Shown here piece by piece: positions 4,248-54,799 of a DNA stretch of 64,000 nucleotides. Every line of letters begins with the position of its first letter. Within the stretch, counting starts at the first letter, position 1. The notes below the pieces were generated by a model that worked only from the letters and a program-made list of their open reading frames with translations, searched no databases and was not told the DNA's origin. The position numbers and the translations under genes were made by a program. This DNA is from an uncultured Alphaproteobacteria bacterium (GTDB taxonomy: Bacteria; Pseudomonadota; Alphaproteobacteria; Rs-D84), in assembly GCA_947367055.1 (NCBI GenBank), contig CANBCI010000001.1, positions 1 through 64,000 on the forward strand. The letters run 5' to 3'.

Positions 4248-5267
4248 TTATTCGGAATAATAACAAGGTGACACAAAAGAATATGTACCCGTTCCGTCAG
4301 AAACAGTTTGCGCCGACGGGACGTAACATTGTGATTTTTGCGTGGCGCCCGCGCTGGATGTCTGTTTTCCGGTCACACTATCAACCGGGCATGCATTGCA
4401 TGAATTGGCCGCTGTGCCGTAATAACCCGACTTGCAAACGCATTTTCCTGTACTGCTACTTTTAGTTGCATTACCACACCCGGTGCCATTACATGATGTA
4501 GTCGCATACTTTAACGGGCACCCATACAGAATTACACCGTAACAATTGCTGCCAGATTGTAGCGTGACCGGCGACACATACCAACAATCGGATGCACACG
4601 TACCGCAATTTGCCGTTGATGGCAATGCAGTCGGAGCCCTAGTTGCCCCTGTCCAAGAATTGGCATTCCATGCCTTGTAATACTTTTTTGATCCTGATGT
4701 ATAAATGGCATTTGCCGCCGTACATGGAGAATTGCCGCTTGAAAATGTTGCACCGGAATCAGTGGAATGCGCCGCGGTATCACATGCATAACATTGTGTC
4801 GACGATGTGGGTTTTGAAATAGAACCATAACCAGATGCACATTCGTATGCTGTGACTTTTGCAGCACAGAAAGATTTTAATGTCGTTGGACTGGTTGCAG
4901 TCACAGACGAAAAGCATGACGCAGTGCTTGTTGAAGAATATGAAACTGTGCTTAAATGCGTACTGGAATTAATCCTGCTGTTTTTGGTACAGGCCGAATC
5001 ACTGCATACGCAGTGCGGCGCGGTTGAACTTGGTATCGTCAAACCTGTTCCACCACATGCCAGGCACCTGCATTTGTTTGAATAACTGATCCCGTCCAAA
5101 ACAACAGTTCCGCATGTTGTCGCCCCACCGCCACAATATGTCGTCGCATATGCGGCGCATGCCGTACTGACCGTGCCCGTTGTGCAACTAACCAGGCCAG
5201 ACGATGAAATCGCAAACACATTGCCATACAAAAGCATCATAGAAACAAACACAAAAAATTTTCTCAT
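4248..5267 (-). CDS. Secreted cysteine-rich repeat protein
   Basis: This 339-residue protein has a clear signal peptide (about residues 1-19, 'MMLLYGNVFA'). The mature part is rich in Cys, Ser, Thr and Gly, with repeated units of the form C-x2-C-x(4-6)-G-x(0-4)-C, resembling EGF-like or 'growth factor receptor' cysteine modules. The C-terminus ('GTYSFVSPCYYSE') matches the end of the protein at 53920-54531, and both genes follow the same kind of structured leader RNA. It is probably a cell-surface or periplasmic protein stabilised by disulfides. The ATG at 5267 follows GGGGG. The binding target is unknown. Confidence 0.85.
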   Translation of the reverse strand: MRKFFVFVSMMLLYGNVFAISSSGLVSCTTGTVSTACAAYATTYCGGGATTCGTVVLDGISYSNKCRCLACGGTGLTIPSSTAPHCVCSDSACTKNSRINSSTHLSTVSYSSTSTASCFSSVTATSPTTLKSFCAAKVTAYECASGYGSISKPTSSTQCYACDTAAHSTDSGATFSSGNSPCTAANAIYTSGSKKYYKAWNANSWTGATRAPTALPSTANCGTCASDCWYVSPVTLQSGSNCYGVILYGCPLKYATTSCNGTGCGNATKSSSTGKCVCKSGYYGTAANSCNACPVDSVTGKQTSSAGATQKSQCYVPSAQTVSDGTGTYSFVSPCYYSE

Positions 5268-5290: not shown

Positions 5291-5508
5291 ATAAAACCAC
5301 CATTTTTCAGGTGGCCAGGAGGTTGAGAACAATCATAGGAATTGTGCCGCGTATTTTATATTCCGCGCGCCCTCCTGAGCCACATATTGGTTCAGGAGTT
5401 TGTTTTTCGTCGTAATACAAAAACAGCGCGATATAATGCGCGCCCCGAATTTTATTCCGACGCCTATGAACGGGTTCTCACACCCCGCCACGGGAACCCC
5501 CCGTGACA
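5291..5508 (-). ncRNA. Structured leader RNA, copy A (pseudoknot plus terminator)
   Basis: This is a predicted minus-strand RNA starting near 5508. A long-range helix pairs TGAGAAC (plus-strand 5474-5480) with GTTCTCA (5324-5330). A pseudoknot pairs CAGGAGG (5371-5377) with CCTCCTG (5316-5322), directly after the helix 3' strand. Inner stems include CGTCG/CGACG (5408-5412 with 5458-5462). The RNA ends in the hairpin CCACC/GGTGG (5297-5314) followed by a T-rich stretch, about 25 nt before the ribosome site of the Cys-rich gene. Copy B at 54556-54763 has the same plan with covarying stems. Function is inferred: attenuator, riboswitch or terminated small RNA. Confidence 0.75.
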
Positions 5509-5514
5509 AACTAA

Positions 5515-5543
5515 ATTATATCAACATGGCAAATATGTTGCAA
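5515..5543 (-). promoter_or_regulatory. Promoter of leader RNA A
   Basis: On the minus strand TTGCAA (5538-5543) and TATAAT (5515-5520) are 17 bp apart, with an extended -10 TG. The predicted start near 5508 coincides with the 5' edge of the structured RNA. Confidence 0.75.
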
Positions 5544-10335: not shown

Positions 10336-10692
10336 TTAGATTCTAACGCCGCCCGCGCGGATTGCTTCGCACAGTGCCTTTACGCGACCATGATAACGAT
10401 AACCGCCGCGATCAAAATAGCAGTTGTCCGCGATGCCGGCCTTGACAGCGCGCGCCGCAAATGCCTTGCCCACCAGTTCGGCACCGGCAACATTCCAGCC
10501 CTTGCCCTTGAAATCTTTTTCCTTGGATGATGCCGCACATACAGTATGACCGCGTTTGTCATCAATCGCCTGGATTTCAATATGGCGGCCCGAACGGAAA
10601 ACCGACAGACGAATCTTGCCAGGATTTTTTCTTTTCAACGCACCGCGATTGGCCAGCGTGCGTCTTTCTTCTGTAGACAAATGTTTTAACAT
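10336..10692 (-). CDS. rplR: 50S ribosomal protein L18
   Basis: This 118-residue L18 binds 5S rRNA with L5. The motifs '[18 protein letters not shown]' and the C-terminal '[22 protein letters not shown]' are typical. A GGAAA ribosome site precedes the ATG at 10692. It lies between rplF and rpsE. Confidence 0.97.
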
Positions 10693-51667: not shown

Positions 51668-51694
51668 AAACACCGCCCGGCCGGGCGGTGTTTT
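51668..51694. terminator. Bidirectional intrinsic terminator
   Basis: CACCGCCCGG / CCGGGCGGTG hairpin followed by TTTTTATTT on the plus strand; the Xre-family gene converges from the other side. Confidence 0.85.
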
Positions 51695-52044
51695 TATTTC
51701 GCAATTAGTCGATTTGATATTCTTAAAATCAGGTTTTTGTCGTCGTCGGTCATGCGACACAGCAGACCAATCATTTCGCGTGTTTTTTTATCGTATATTT
51801 CCGATGTTTTTTCAACCTCGCCCAATAGTGCGACAATGGAAATATTCATGGCCTTTGCAATATAATATAGCCGTGATGCAGATATGCGATTGGATGCCGC
51901 TTCATACTTTTGCACCTGTTGAAATGTGACGCCCAGGGTTTGTGCCAAATCATTTTGCGACATGCCCAATTTGCGTCGCCAATTAACAATCATTTGCCCG
52001 ATTAGAATATCAACCGAATCCGGTTTGAATGGTCGCCCCGACAT
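51694..52044 (-). CDS. Xre-family helix-turn-helix regulator
   Basis: This 116-residue protein has a Cro/C1-type DNA-binding domain (about 12-70): 'IVNWRRKLGMSQNDLAQTLGVTFQQVQKYEAASNRISASRLYYIAKAMNI'. A short helical tail follows ('MIGLLCRMTDDDKNLILRISNRLI'). Such small regulators are common in alphaproteobacteria and often act as repressors. Two tandem structured RNAs (C and D) lie in its leader. GGGGGAA precedes the ATG at 52044. Confidence 0.9.
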   Translation of the reverse strand: MSGRPFKPDSVDILIGQMIVNWRRKLGMSQNDLAQTLGVTFQQVQKYEAASNRISASRLYYIAKAMNISIVALLGEVEKTSEIYDKKTREMIGLLCRMTDDDKNLILRISNRLIAK

Positions 52045-52062: not shown

Positions 52063-52250
52063 TAAAAAATTTAACCATCGAAAGAACGATGGCTGGAGGT
52101 TAACAACAATACCAAAGTAAATTGCCCGCTTATTTAGATATATCGCGGCCTCCAGCCCTACAACTGGACTTTCACGCCCGAATGCGGGCAACTTTGGTTT
52201 TTATTGAGGTTGTTAAGCCCCATTTTTGCGACGGATTTAACCGACCATGT
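52063..52250 (-). ncRNA. Structured leader RNA, copy C
   Basis: Minus-strand RNA. The long-range helix is extensive: plus-strand TTAACAAC (52100-52107) with GTTGTTAA (52209-52216), ACCAAAGT (52111) with ACTTTGGT (52191), TTGCCCGC (52122) with GCGGGCAA (52184). The pseudoknot strands are GGCTGGAGG (52091-52099) and CCTCCAGCC (52149-52157), 9 bp. The 3' hairpin CCATCG/CGATGG (52075-52092) is followed by a T-run and then the xre ribosome site. The terminator stem shares two bases with the pseudoknot, so the two may compete. Confidence 0.75.
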
Positions 52251-52256
52251 GTTCCA

Positions 52257-52264
52257 ATTATATC
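52257..52264 (-). promoter_or_regulatory. Extended -10 promoter of leader RNA C
   Basis: TGATATAAT on the minus strand, a consensus extended -10, lies about 7 bp before the predicted RNA start. The -35 region is weak. Confidence 0.55.
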
Positions 52265-52305
52265 AGCGCACCGCAAAATTTCCATAAAAATCGCACCCGG
52301 CCGAT

Positions 52306-52482
52306 ATAAAAAACCTATCATAAAATAGATAGGCTGGAGGCTAGTACTTACACAATAGCATGTATAGCGACCTATTCAATATATTCAGTCGCACCCCAGC
52401 CTTTCAGCCGGTGTTTATTCCCACAAAAGGGAATCGCTATTGTGTGAGAGTACTAATCTCACATGACAGAACACCCGTCACA
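52306..52482 (-). ncRNA. Structured leader RNA, copy D
   Basis: Minus-strand RNA with a long-range helix: plus-strand TAGTACT (52342) with AGTACTA (52449), and CACAATAGC (52351) with GCTATTGTG (52436). A shorter pseudoknot uses GGCTGG (52332-52337) and CCAGCC (52396-52401). Inner hairpins are GCGAC/GTCGC and ATTCCC/GGGAAT. The 3' hairpin CCTATC/GATAGG (52314-52333) is followed by TTTTTTATAT. It lies upstream of copy C, so transcripts starting here pass two terminators before xre. Confidence 0.7.
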
Positions 52483-52488
52483 GTTGAA

Positions 52489-52517
52489 AGTATACCTAAA
52501 AATTATACCGATTGCAA
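52489..52517 (-). promoter_or_regulatory. Promoter of leader RNA D
   Basis: On the minus strand TTGCAA (52512-52517) and TATACT (52489-52494) are 17 bp apart. The -35 is identical to that of copy A. The start falls at the 5' edge of RNA D. Confidence 0.65.
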
Positions 52518-52611
52518 ATATTTTATTGTGAAATTAAACGGGCCGCACTGCGACCCTTAAAAATGAATTAAATGCAACTTTGCAAAAATTATTAGAATGA
52601 TATAGATGCGG

Positions 52612-52664
52612 AAAATGGCGGCAACGTAGTGTACAAATGCTACATGAGTTGCCGCCATTTTTTG
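52612..52664. terminator. Large hairpin, probable terminator near efp
   Basis: ATGGCGGCAAC / GTTGCCGCCAT with an inner GTAG/CTAC stem, followed by TTTTTT on the plus strand and a weaker T-tract on the minus. It can end efp transcription (minus) or any plus-strand RNA from 52045-52611. Its apex shares AGTGTACAAATG with a hairpin at 6942-6982. Confidence 0.7.
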
Positions 52665-52691: not shown

Positions 52692-53261
52692 TTATTTTGC
52701 TCTTTCTACATATTCCAGTGTTTCAGTATTTACGACGATTTTCTCGCCCGCTTCGACAAATAGCGGAACCTGAACACGAATACCATTATCCAAAATAGCC
52801 GGTTTGCCGCCGCTGGATGATGCGGTCTGACCCTTTAGGGCGGGTTCGGTTTCTTCGACCGTCGCAATTACCGTTTTCGGCAATGTGATAGATACCGGGT
52901 GCCCTTCGACAAAGTTCGCCTTGACATTCATTTCCGGCGCCAGGAACTTCATCATGTCGCCCAATGAATCAACCGGCATTGTGAACTGTTCATAATCCGA
53001 CAGGTTCATAAAGAACGCGTCCGTACCGTCGGAATACAAATACTGACATTCGAAATCTTCGACCATCAGTTTTTCAACCTTGTCTTCGGCACGCCAACGG
53101 TCGCCACCCTTGTTGCCGGTGTCAATATCGCGCAGGTCGGCCTGAACAAACGCACCGCCCTTGCCCGGTTTTACCTTGGTTATTGATGTAACGGAATAAC
53201 GGCGCCCGTTGTGGGAAATAACCCAACCGACACGCATGTCATTTGCAATGTATGATGCCAT
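52692..53261 (-). CDS. efp: Elongation factor P
   Basis: This 189-residue three-domain factor rescues ribosomes stalled at polyproline. The modification-site loop 'KPGKGGAFVQADLRDIDTG' has Lys at position 34, the normal target for beta-lysylation or rhamnosylation-type partners (Lys fits EpmA). Later signatures 'SLGDMMKFLAPEMNVKANF' and 'NGIRVQVPLFVEAGEKIVVNT' are complete. The modification enzymes are not in the window. It lies 60 bp after ppa. Confidence 0.97.
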   Translation of the reverse strand: MASYIANDMRVGWVISHNGRRYSVTSITKVKPGKGGAFVQADLRDIDTGNKGGDRWRAEDKVEKLMVEDFECQYLYSDGTDAFFMNLSDYEQFTMPVDSLGDMMKFLAPEMNVKANFVEGHPVSITLPKTVIATVEETEPALKGQTASSSGGKPAILDNGIRVQVPLFVEAGEKIVVNTETLEYVERAK

Positions 53262-53919: not shown

Positions 53920-54531
53920 TCAATTTGAACTGTAATGGCAATTTGACGTAAATTCATATGTTCCCGACTCATCCGACATTTCTGTCCCGGTGGGCAAATA
54001 ACAATCAGATATCTTGGTGCCATACGCATCGGTTTTTCCATTATCCGGGCATGCCTTGCATGATGCGTCGCCGGTTGCGGTATTACATTCATCCGCATAG
54101 TAAAATGCTCCATACGTTCCGCAACCACATTCATAGGTGTAAACCGATGTACAACTGCCATCAATTTTCTTTTTTGTACAACTTGTTTTGCGCCGATAAT
54201 TGATACTAAAGGATCCATAACCCATATTTTCCCATTTTGTATCATCAGTGGTTAAATAACATCCCAAAGAAGAACACAAATCAATCTCGGCCTTATAACA
54301 AGATGAGCATTCTGTCGCGCAGTTTGATTGCGATGATGCACTGCAACTATCACAACATACATAGTCACTAATCTTATAACAAGATGCGCATTCTGTCGCA
54401 CATTGTGATTGCGACGGGGCCCAACAACCGTCACAGCACAAATATGTTGTTATTTCAGGGGTCGTCGAAATTGCCCCAGGCGCAGGTTGTGATAATATCA
54501 CCAAGGCAAAAAGCATCAAAATTAAACGCAT
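53920..54531 (-). CDS. Secreted cysteine-rich protein
   Basis: This 203-residue protein has a signal peptide (to about 20) and about 24 cysteines. The N-terminal part holds two to three copies of a unit of about 28 residues, 'CCDGCWAPSQSQCATECASCYK', including adjacent Cys pairs. The C-terminal module ('CKACPDNGKTDAYG', 'SDCYLPTGTEMSDESGTYEFTSNC') matches the end of the protein at 4248. Both genes follow the same type of structured RNA. GGGGG precedes the ATG. Disulfide-bonded surface protein by inference; function unknown. Confidence 0.82.
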   Translation of the reverse strand: MRLILMLFALVILSQPAPGAISTTPEITTYLCCDGCWAPSQSQCATECASCYKISDYVCCDSCSASSQSNCATECSSCYKAEIDLCSSLGCYLTTDDTKWENMGYGSFSINYRRKTSCTKKKIDGSCTSVYTYECGCGTYGAFYYADECNTATGDASCKACPDNGKTDAYGTKISDCYLPTGTEMSDESGTYEFTSNCHYSSN

Positions 54532-54555: not shown

Positions 54556-54763
54556 AAAACAAAAACCACCGAATATATTCAGTGGCCAGGAGGTTGACAA
54601 CTATCTTGCGAGTAGCACGGTTTATTTGTTATTAGACCGTCCTCCTGACCCTTTGATGAATCAGGAGAATATTTATCGTCGCAATAAAAACGGCGCATTG
54701 CGCCAAATATATTCCGACGCACAAGAGAGGTTGTCATGCCCCATCACGGCAACCCGCCGTGAC
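54556..54763 (-). ncRNA. Structured leader RNA, copy B
   Basis: Minus-strand RNA starting near 54763 with a GTCACGG/CCGTGA-type hairpin. The long-range helix pairs plus-strand TGACAAC (54595-54601) with GTTGTCA (54730-54736); copy A has TGAGAAC/GTTCTCA at the same place, a compensatory change. The pseudoknot is CAGGAGG (54587-54593) with CCTCCTG (54641-54647). An inner stem is CGTCG/CGACG (54677, 54715). The 3' hairpin CCAC/GTGG (54566-54585) is followed by TTTTTGTTTT, 25-30 nt before the ribosome site of the Cys-rich gene. Confidence 0.78.
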
Positions 54764-54769
54764 ATTTTT

Positions 54770-54799
54770 ATTATAGGAAATTAACATTCATATTGTAAA
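54770..54799 (-). promoter_or_regulatory. Promoter of leader RNA B
   Basis: On the minus strand TTTACA (54794-54799) and TATAAT (54770-54775) have an 18-bp spacer. The start falls at the 5' edge of RNA B. Confidence 0.7.

Follow-up and report, generated by a model that had tools for sequence, protein, structure and literature searches.

The window, by which we mean the whole 64,000-nt stretch of DNA analysed here, carries four copies (A to D) of a structured RNA element of about 200 nt, all on the minus strand. Copies A and D each stand before a gene for a Cys-rich secreted protein, copy C stands before a gene for an XRE-type helix-turn-helix (HTH) protein, and copy B is followed by copy C. 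A sequence-only reading had proposed four minus-strand loci of one shared architecture; all four were found where it had placed them, with the helix and pseudoknot strands it had named present letter for letter and a terminator hairpin in every copy. R1, a covariance model built from 36 relatives, was scanned without filters against the whole window and returned these four and no others (minus-strand matches at 5313-5486, 54584-54742, 52090-52221 and 52331-52461), with scores of 157, 123, 43 and 24 bits, the next match scoring 15.7 bits. The folding energies of the four copies were far lower than those of dinucleotide shuffles (z -5.9, -7.8, -7.1 and -4.3 for A, D, B and C). The features of each copy are as follows.

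5515-5520, minus strand: -10 box (TATAAT) of copy A
5291-5508, minus strand: copy A, long class, whole element from the P1 hairpin to the terminator (folding, R1 scan)
5474-5480 with 5324-5330 (span 5324-5480), minus strand: long-range helix P2a of copy A (covariation)
5463-5468 with 5334-5339, minus strand: helix P2b of copy A, inside P2a (covariation)
5408-5462, 5346-5370 and 5330-5344, minus strand: P3, P5 and P6 of copy A, lying with P4 inside P2a
5371-5398, minus strand: P4 hairpin of copy A, with strands X (5389-5398) and Y (5371-5383)
5313-5322, minus strand: Z strand of copy A, CCTCCTGGCC, pseudoknot partner of Y
5291-5316, minus strand: terminator hairpin and T-run of copy A, the 5' arm starting inside Z
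4248-5267, minus strand: gene after copy A, Cys-rich secreted protein of 339 aa without Pfam match
54770-54775, minus strand: -10 box of copy D
54556-54764, minus strand: copy D, long class, whole element (folding, R1 scan)
54730-54736 with 54595-54601, minus strand: P2a of copy D
54641-54667, minus strand: P4 hairpin of copy D, with strands X (54661-54667) and Y (54641-54651)
54584-54593, minus strand: Z strand of copy D, CCTCCTGGCC
54556-54587, minus strand: terminator of copy D, overlapping Z
53920-54531, minus strand: gene after copy D, Cys-rich secreted protein of 203 aa without Pfam match
52489-52494, minus strand: -10 box of copy B
52306-52483, minus strand: copy B, short class, whole element, with no gene directly behind
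52449-52455 with 52342-52348, minus strand: P2a of copy B
52392-52413, minus strand: P4 hairpin of copy B, with strands X (52407-52413) and Y (52392-52402)
52331-52340, minus strand: Z strand of copy B, CCTCCAGCCT, overlapped by the terminator (52306-52335)
52257-52262, minus strand: -10 box of copy C
52064-52248, minus strand: copy C, short class, whole element (folding, R1 scan)
52209-52216 with 52100-52107, minus strand: P2a of copy C
52149-52169, minus strand: P4 hairpin of copy C, with strands X (52162-52169) and Y (52149-52158)
52091-52099, minus strand: Z strand of copy C, CCTCCAGCC, overlapped by the terminator (52064-52094)
51694-52044, minus strand: gene after copy C, XRE-type HTH protein (HTH_3)

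Between copy B and an ORF at 52692-53261 we noted a long near-perfect inverted repeat (ATGGCGGCAAC...GTTGCCGCCAT, 52610-52660), which is probably a terminator.

Reading from 5' to 3', the element consists of a -10 box, the hairpins P1 and P1b, the 5' strands of P2a and P2b, then P3, X, Y, P5 and P6, the 3' strand of P2a, Z, the terminator, a ribosome site and a start codon. The promoter that had been proposed is positionally real, the best -10 box starting 32-34 nt upstream of a GRGG block in 208 of 267 relatives. Hairpin P1 reaches 6 bp or more in 245 of 267 copies, compared with 91 when shuffled. P1b is a small GRGG/CCYC hairpin whose CCYC lies directly behind the P2a strand; nested minimum-energy folds instead pair an outer GGGG with Z, and this pairing is possible in all rows but never changes on both sides, so P1b, which does show double change, was preferred. 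The loop of P5 is conserved (AATA...AATA), and P6 is a four-pair hairpin, with the 3' strand of P2b in its loop and all four pairs formed in 44 of 49 rows, mostly as CAAT/ATTG or CTAT/ATAG and also as CCGT/ACGG. Two classes differ in P3, a long class with a core of about 160 nt (copies A and D) and a short class with a core of about 125 nt (copies B and C). A frequent ATG GGG TGT GAG was considered as the beginning of a leader peptide and set aside, since P2b may be 6 or 7 nt long, which alters the frame, and the ATG is absent from some copies.

Compensatory change between copies had been put forward as evidence for RNA structure, and this held once homologues were added. Double-sided change was found in 18 of 35 pairs among the 36 aligned relatives, with 164 double-change cells against 42 in shuffles; this set was gathered by a parser that required both P2a and P2b, so that the pairing percentages of these two long-range helices are biased upward in it. 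A wider set of 49 sequences, drawn from several families and from both classes, showed such change in 31 of 35 pairs (383 cells against 98 in shuffles), with a covariation score of 0.62 against 0.16. Displacing the 3' partners by 1-3 columns lowered the paired cells of this alignment, which was fitted to the structure, from 98% to 36-54%. All five pairs of P5 show double changes in the wider set, and P4 covaries likewise, suggesting that X, Y and Z are kept mutually compatible, as a switch would need.

The Y:Z pseudoknot is left unpaired both in R1 and in the broader covariance model R2, and its test is thus free of structure-fitting bias. Y and Z of the same sequence gave a pairing score of 20.8, against 14.3 with partners swapped between sequences, and none of 2000 permutations reached the observed sum, in agreement with the pseudoknot originally suggested. 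The two strands co-vary across subtypes (GTCAGGAGG/CCTCCTGAC, GGTTGGAGG/CCTCCAACC, GTCGGGAGG/CCTCCCGAC, GGTTGGAGT/ACTCCAACC and GGCGACTGG/CCAGTCGCC), and X changes jointly with both. We additionally identified two features that the sequence-only reading did not contain, an overlap of Z with the terminator and the local hairpin P4, which competes for the same strand. In 70 of the 71 copies with a recognisable terminator, its 5' arm reaches into Z by 1-6 nt, usually by 3 or 4, and this overlap is kept even where the terminator sequences differ. Y can pair with X, forming P4, or with Z, never with both at once.

The position of the element relative to genes is that of a riboswitch or attenuator, a structured leader directly upstream of ORFs. 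Of 262 distinct copies, 223 are followed by an ORF start at a median of 49 nt (middle half 46-54 nt), and these ORFs are preceded by a ribosome site. In a crude purpose-made comparison on a sample tilted towards the long class by one scan that had a long-class sequence as its pattern, 180 of 214 downstream genes (84%) encoded an export-signal-like N-terminus against 106 of 423 other ORFs (25%), and 129 of 204 downstream proteins contained at least 5% Cys against 27 of 423 other ORFs. In this genome the downstream genes encode Cys-rich secreted proteins, a trypsin-like protease, a PAP2 protein, an outer membrane barrel, a family 8 glycosyltransferase and several HTH regulators; in other alphaproteobacteria the set again comprises genes for outer membrane, lipoprotein-like and pilin-like proteins, for HTH regulators and for restriction-modification. 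Among the long-class genes, 67 of 126 have CAGGAG as their ribosome site, a sequence complementary to X and Z, compared with 3 of 725 background ORFs. The genome background is AAGGAG, and the C of CAGGAG matches the X/Z strands (examples are L010, L033 and L029). Short-class genes lack a matching site, and CAGGAG may thus reflect shared ancestry, inherited with the leader-gene unit. A ribosome site matching Y in every subtype was rejected, as this holds for the long class (CAGGAG) and fails for the short class.

The genome (959,553 bases in five contigs, order Rs-D84/Ca. Enterousia) contains about 37 matches to R1 at E <0.001 and 46 matches to R2 at E 2.5e-7 or better. The count of four copies was therefore exact for the window and a large underestimate for the genome, which holds about 46 to 50. 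Enterousia has been placed in Rs-D84, an order of uncultured bacteria with genomes of about 1 Mb or less, which are regarded as probable obligate symbionts or parasites of animal guts (PMC12306168). Scanning with the Rfam model RF02221 (sRNA-Xcc1) adds at least three copies of a third subtype, of the same plan and with an ORF behind. The loci of this subtype (L400, L402 and L403 at G000 C2:33729, C3:119673 and C3:156592, and L401 at C4:16793) have a CAGGG-like P5 region and were picked up by RF02221 and not by R1, only C4:16800 doubling as a weak R2 match; the ORFs behind them look exported in most cases.

We identified relatives in Ca. Enterousia and in other alphaproteobacterial genomes, mostly from animal guts. 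The RNA was present in 107 of 113 genomes in a survey of the family, covering all 13 genera sampled, and in four genera of two other families of the same order. A class-wide draw searched with R2 gave 31 positive genomes out of 385, of which 27 were outside the genus of the window. R2 also matched three genomes of the phylum outside Alphaproteobacteria, and a clear T-run behind the hairpin was absent in those out-of-class copies that were read. Within the genus, four genomes (G044, G126, G040 and G156, completeness 90-94%) have zero copies, against 25 or more in some others.

Some copies occur in tandem. At L212 (G000 C3:142600-146500), six minus-strand copies, some of them degenerate, follow each other with no sizeable ORF between them. 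Behind this array lies an XRE-type HTH gene similar in kind to that at 51694-52044 of the window, and a seventh copy is on the opposite strand. Gene-less tandem copies, each apparently with its own promoter, were likewise found at L203 and L210 and in copies B and C.

The claim that this family has no known kin did not survive. Searching the window against Rfam, at the gathering cut-off and at E up to 10, gave nothing relevant, the sole match above cut-off being a tRNA. RF02221, whose model covers 87 nt and whose curated gathering cut-off is 53 bits, did not reach that score in the window, and its best match in this genome scored 42 bits (E 1.9e-6). At cut-off the window copies thus match no Rfam family. 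Distant copies do, RF02221 exceeding its gathering score in L342, within the class, and in L373, L374 and L375, outside it. L342 bridges the two models, matching R1 at E 1.2e-11 and RF02221 at 56.2 bits, and 6 of the 12 RF02221 matches in this genome coincide with R1/R2 copies. In alignments, the outer helix of RF02221 corresponds to Y:Z and its two inner hairpins to P5 and P6. The plan of RF02221, an outer helix around two hairpins, is accordingly found in the 3' half of the element, where Y:Z covaries and P5 and P6 are supported.

In the Vibrio phage VPBES, R2 matches across an annotated sRNA-Xcc1 and further upstream through the 5' half; the annotated RNA stops 31 nt short of an ORF. Full-length copies extend beyond RF02221, indicating that the larger element is represented in this model by its 3' half alone, and copies with the 5' half were present in the phages and Proteobacteria looked at. 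Judged by these sequence matches, the element shares detectable common descent with sRNA-Xcc1. As the window copies fail the curated cut-off, they are relatives and not catalogued members, and the element is a new, greatly expanded variant in the sRNA-Xcc1 superfamily. Three distant relatives (L373, L374 and L398) lie upstream of phage antirepressor (Bro-N, P22_AR_N) and KilA-N genes.

Compared with known systems, the element shares with sRNA-Xcc1 its 3' module, its occurrence in several copies, some in tandem, as in Xylella, where seven copies, five of them in a tandem cluster, are detected as small RNAs (PMC12189769), and its place upstream of genes, as before symE in integron cassettes of Xanthomonas (PMC12444791). 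It differs in being about 200 nt long, in having a 5' half (P1, P1b, P3 and X), in P2a/P2b, in a terminator overlapping Z, and in its 46-50 copies or so per genome with a regulon of surface proteins; the passages of PMC2996969, PMC12444791 and PMC12189769 that were searched describe no 5' half, terminator overlap or regulon. Similarly, SAM-I and T-box leaders have mutually exclusive terminators and antiterminators and many copies serving one regulon, whereas here the antiterminator would be a pseudoknot, the genes encode exported proteins instead of a metabolic pathway, and no Rfam riboswitch matches. C4 antisense RNA of P1/P22-type phages lies upstream of antirepressor genes and pairs with ribosome sites. 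Weak c4 matches (RF01695, c4-2) occur near some distant relatives, but the fold differs, and C4 was rejected as a parent since there is no c4 match at the elements, including those of the window.

We consider it fairly probable, on the sequence comparisons above, that the element attenuates transcription in cis from the 5' leader of its genes, as a branch of a superfamily of which only the sRNA-Xcc1 piece has so far been catalogued. Transcription would begin at hairpin P1, and P2a and P2b would join the 5' half (P1, P1b, P3, X) to the 3' half (Y, P5, P6, Z). Pairing of Y with X in P4 would leave Z free, so that the terminator forms and transcription yields a short RNA of about 200 nt. The terminator arm begins inside Z, and full Y:Z pairing would thus remove the terminator base and let RNA polymerase enter the gene. 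The terminator and the antiterminator are therefore predicted to be mutually exclusive, with the pseudoknot as putative antiterminator and P4 as anti-antiterminator. We infer that the RNA switches between the two folds in the cell, with the pseudoknotted one as the probable ON state, and that a cellular signal, most likely sensed by the conserved core (P2, the P5 loop and P6), would tip the balance. The calculated energies of P4 (-8.7 to -15.2 kcal/mol), the Y:Z duplex (-16.3 to -18.5) and the terminator (-9.5 to -11.6) give no decisive winner among the folds. In this lineage the element has expanded to some fifty sites, which lie chiefly in front of genes for exported surface proteins.

A broader reading, which we advance tentatively and hold with clearly less confidence than attenuation itself, is that the element represents an unrecognised class of sensor RNA with a pseudoknot antiterminator, of which sRNA-Xcc1 is the 3' half, and that its fifty or so copies place most of the variable surface proteome of these genome-reduced gut Alphaproteobacteria under one signal. 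If true, this would be among the largest regulons of a single RNA class relative to genome size. sRNA-Xcc1, catalogued but functionally unexplained, would become a testable cis-regulatory switch that has a complete structure, operates by a terminator/antiterminator logic and controls genes forming a coherent set. A surface-protein regulon of this size in Rs-D84 points to a mode of adjustment to the host, and the signal, if found, would extend to many Alphaproteobacteria and, via sRNA-Xcc1, to plant pathogens, phages and integron cassettes.

The strongest competitor of the attenuator, which we nevertheless regard as unlikely, is a multi-copy trans-acting small RNA, either the terminated 200-nt transcript or a processed 3' half, whose CTCC-rich strands would pair with Shine-Dalgarno regions elsewhere. 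The gene-less tandem copies with promoters of their own suit a free-standing RNA and argue against an attenuator, and the complementarity of CAGGAG to X and Z agrees with such pairing. So does the isolation of the kindred sRNA-Xcc1 in Xanthomonas as an 88-nt RNA, called trans-acting (PMC2996969), and its detection among the small RNAs of Xylella (PMC12189769). However, an RNA acting in trans would need neither the tight ORF spacing seen in 85% of copies nor a terminator that consistently reaches into Z. All predicted folds have Z paired, and the matching ribosome site is missing in the short class, so that it may simply come with the leader-gene unit.

It is still less probable that the element is a constitutive leader, consisting of a promoter, a protective 5' structure and a leaky terminator, which would set a fixed low or a stochastic on/off expression without any signal. 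The outer membrane, pilin-like, glycosyltransferase, restriction-modification and HTH classes among the downstream genes resemble those that are randomly switched in other bacteria, and calculated energies that favour neither fold decisively would be compatible with stochastic expression. Against this, a constitutive leader has no need for three compatible strands or for a complex conserved core with P5 and P6.

We find it very improbable that the element is a cassette, mobile or derived from a phage, with an RNA structure that promotes its own propagation, as in the integron cassettes that carry sRNA-Xcc1 (PMC12444791), its position before genes being incidental. Relatives lie in phages before antirepressor and KilA-N genes and on plasmids, and the copy number ranges from 0 to about 46 among relatives. 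An unsystematic look, however, noticed no transposase or shared ends beside the copies, and helices are preserved by compensatory change from copy to copy, suggesting that each RNA is functional. The first proposal, an entirely new RNA family with no known relation, has in its favour that the window copies give no Rfam match above cut-off, and is contradicted by the bridge copies that match both R1/R2 and RF02221.

A phage origin of the Enterousia copies was likewise rejected, as only one viral contig carries a copy. This contig, classed as viral (L338, IMGVR_UViG_3300010163_000459), has a long-class copy at 10407-10472 with a Cys-rich gene behind it, and may be a fragment of a host genome.
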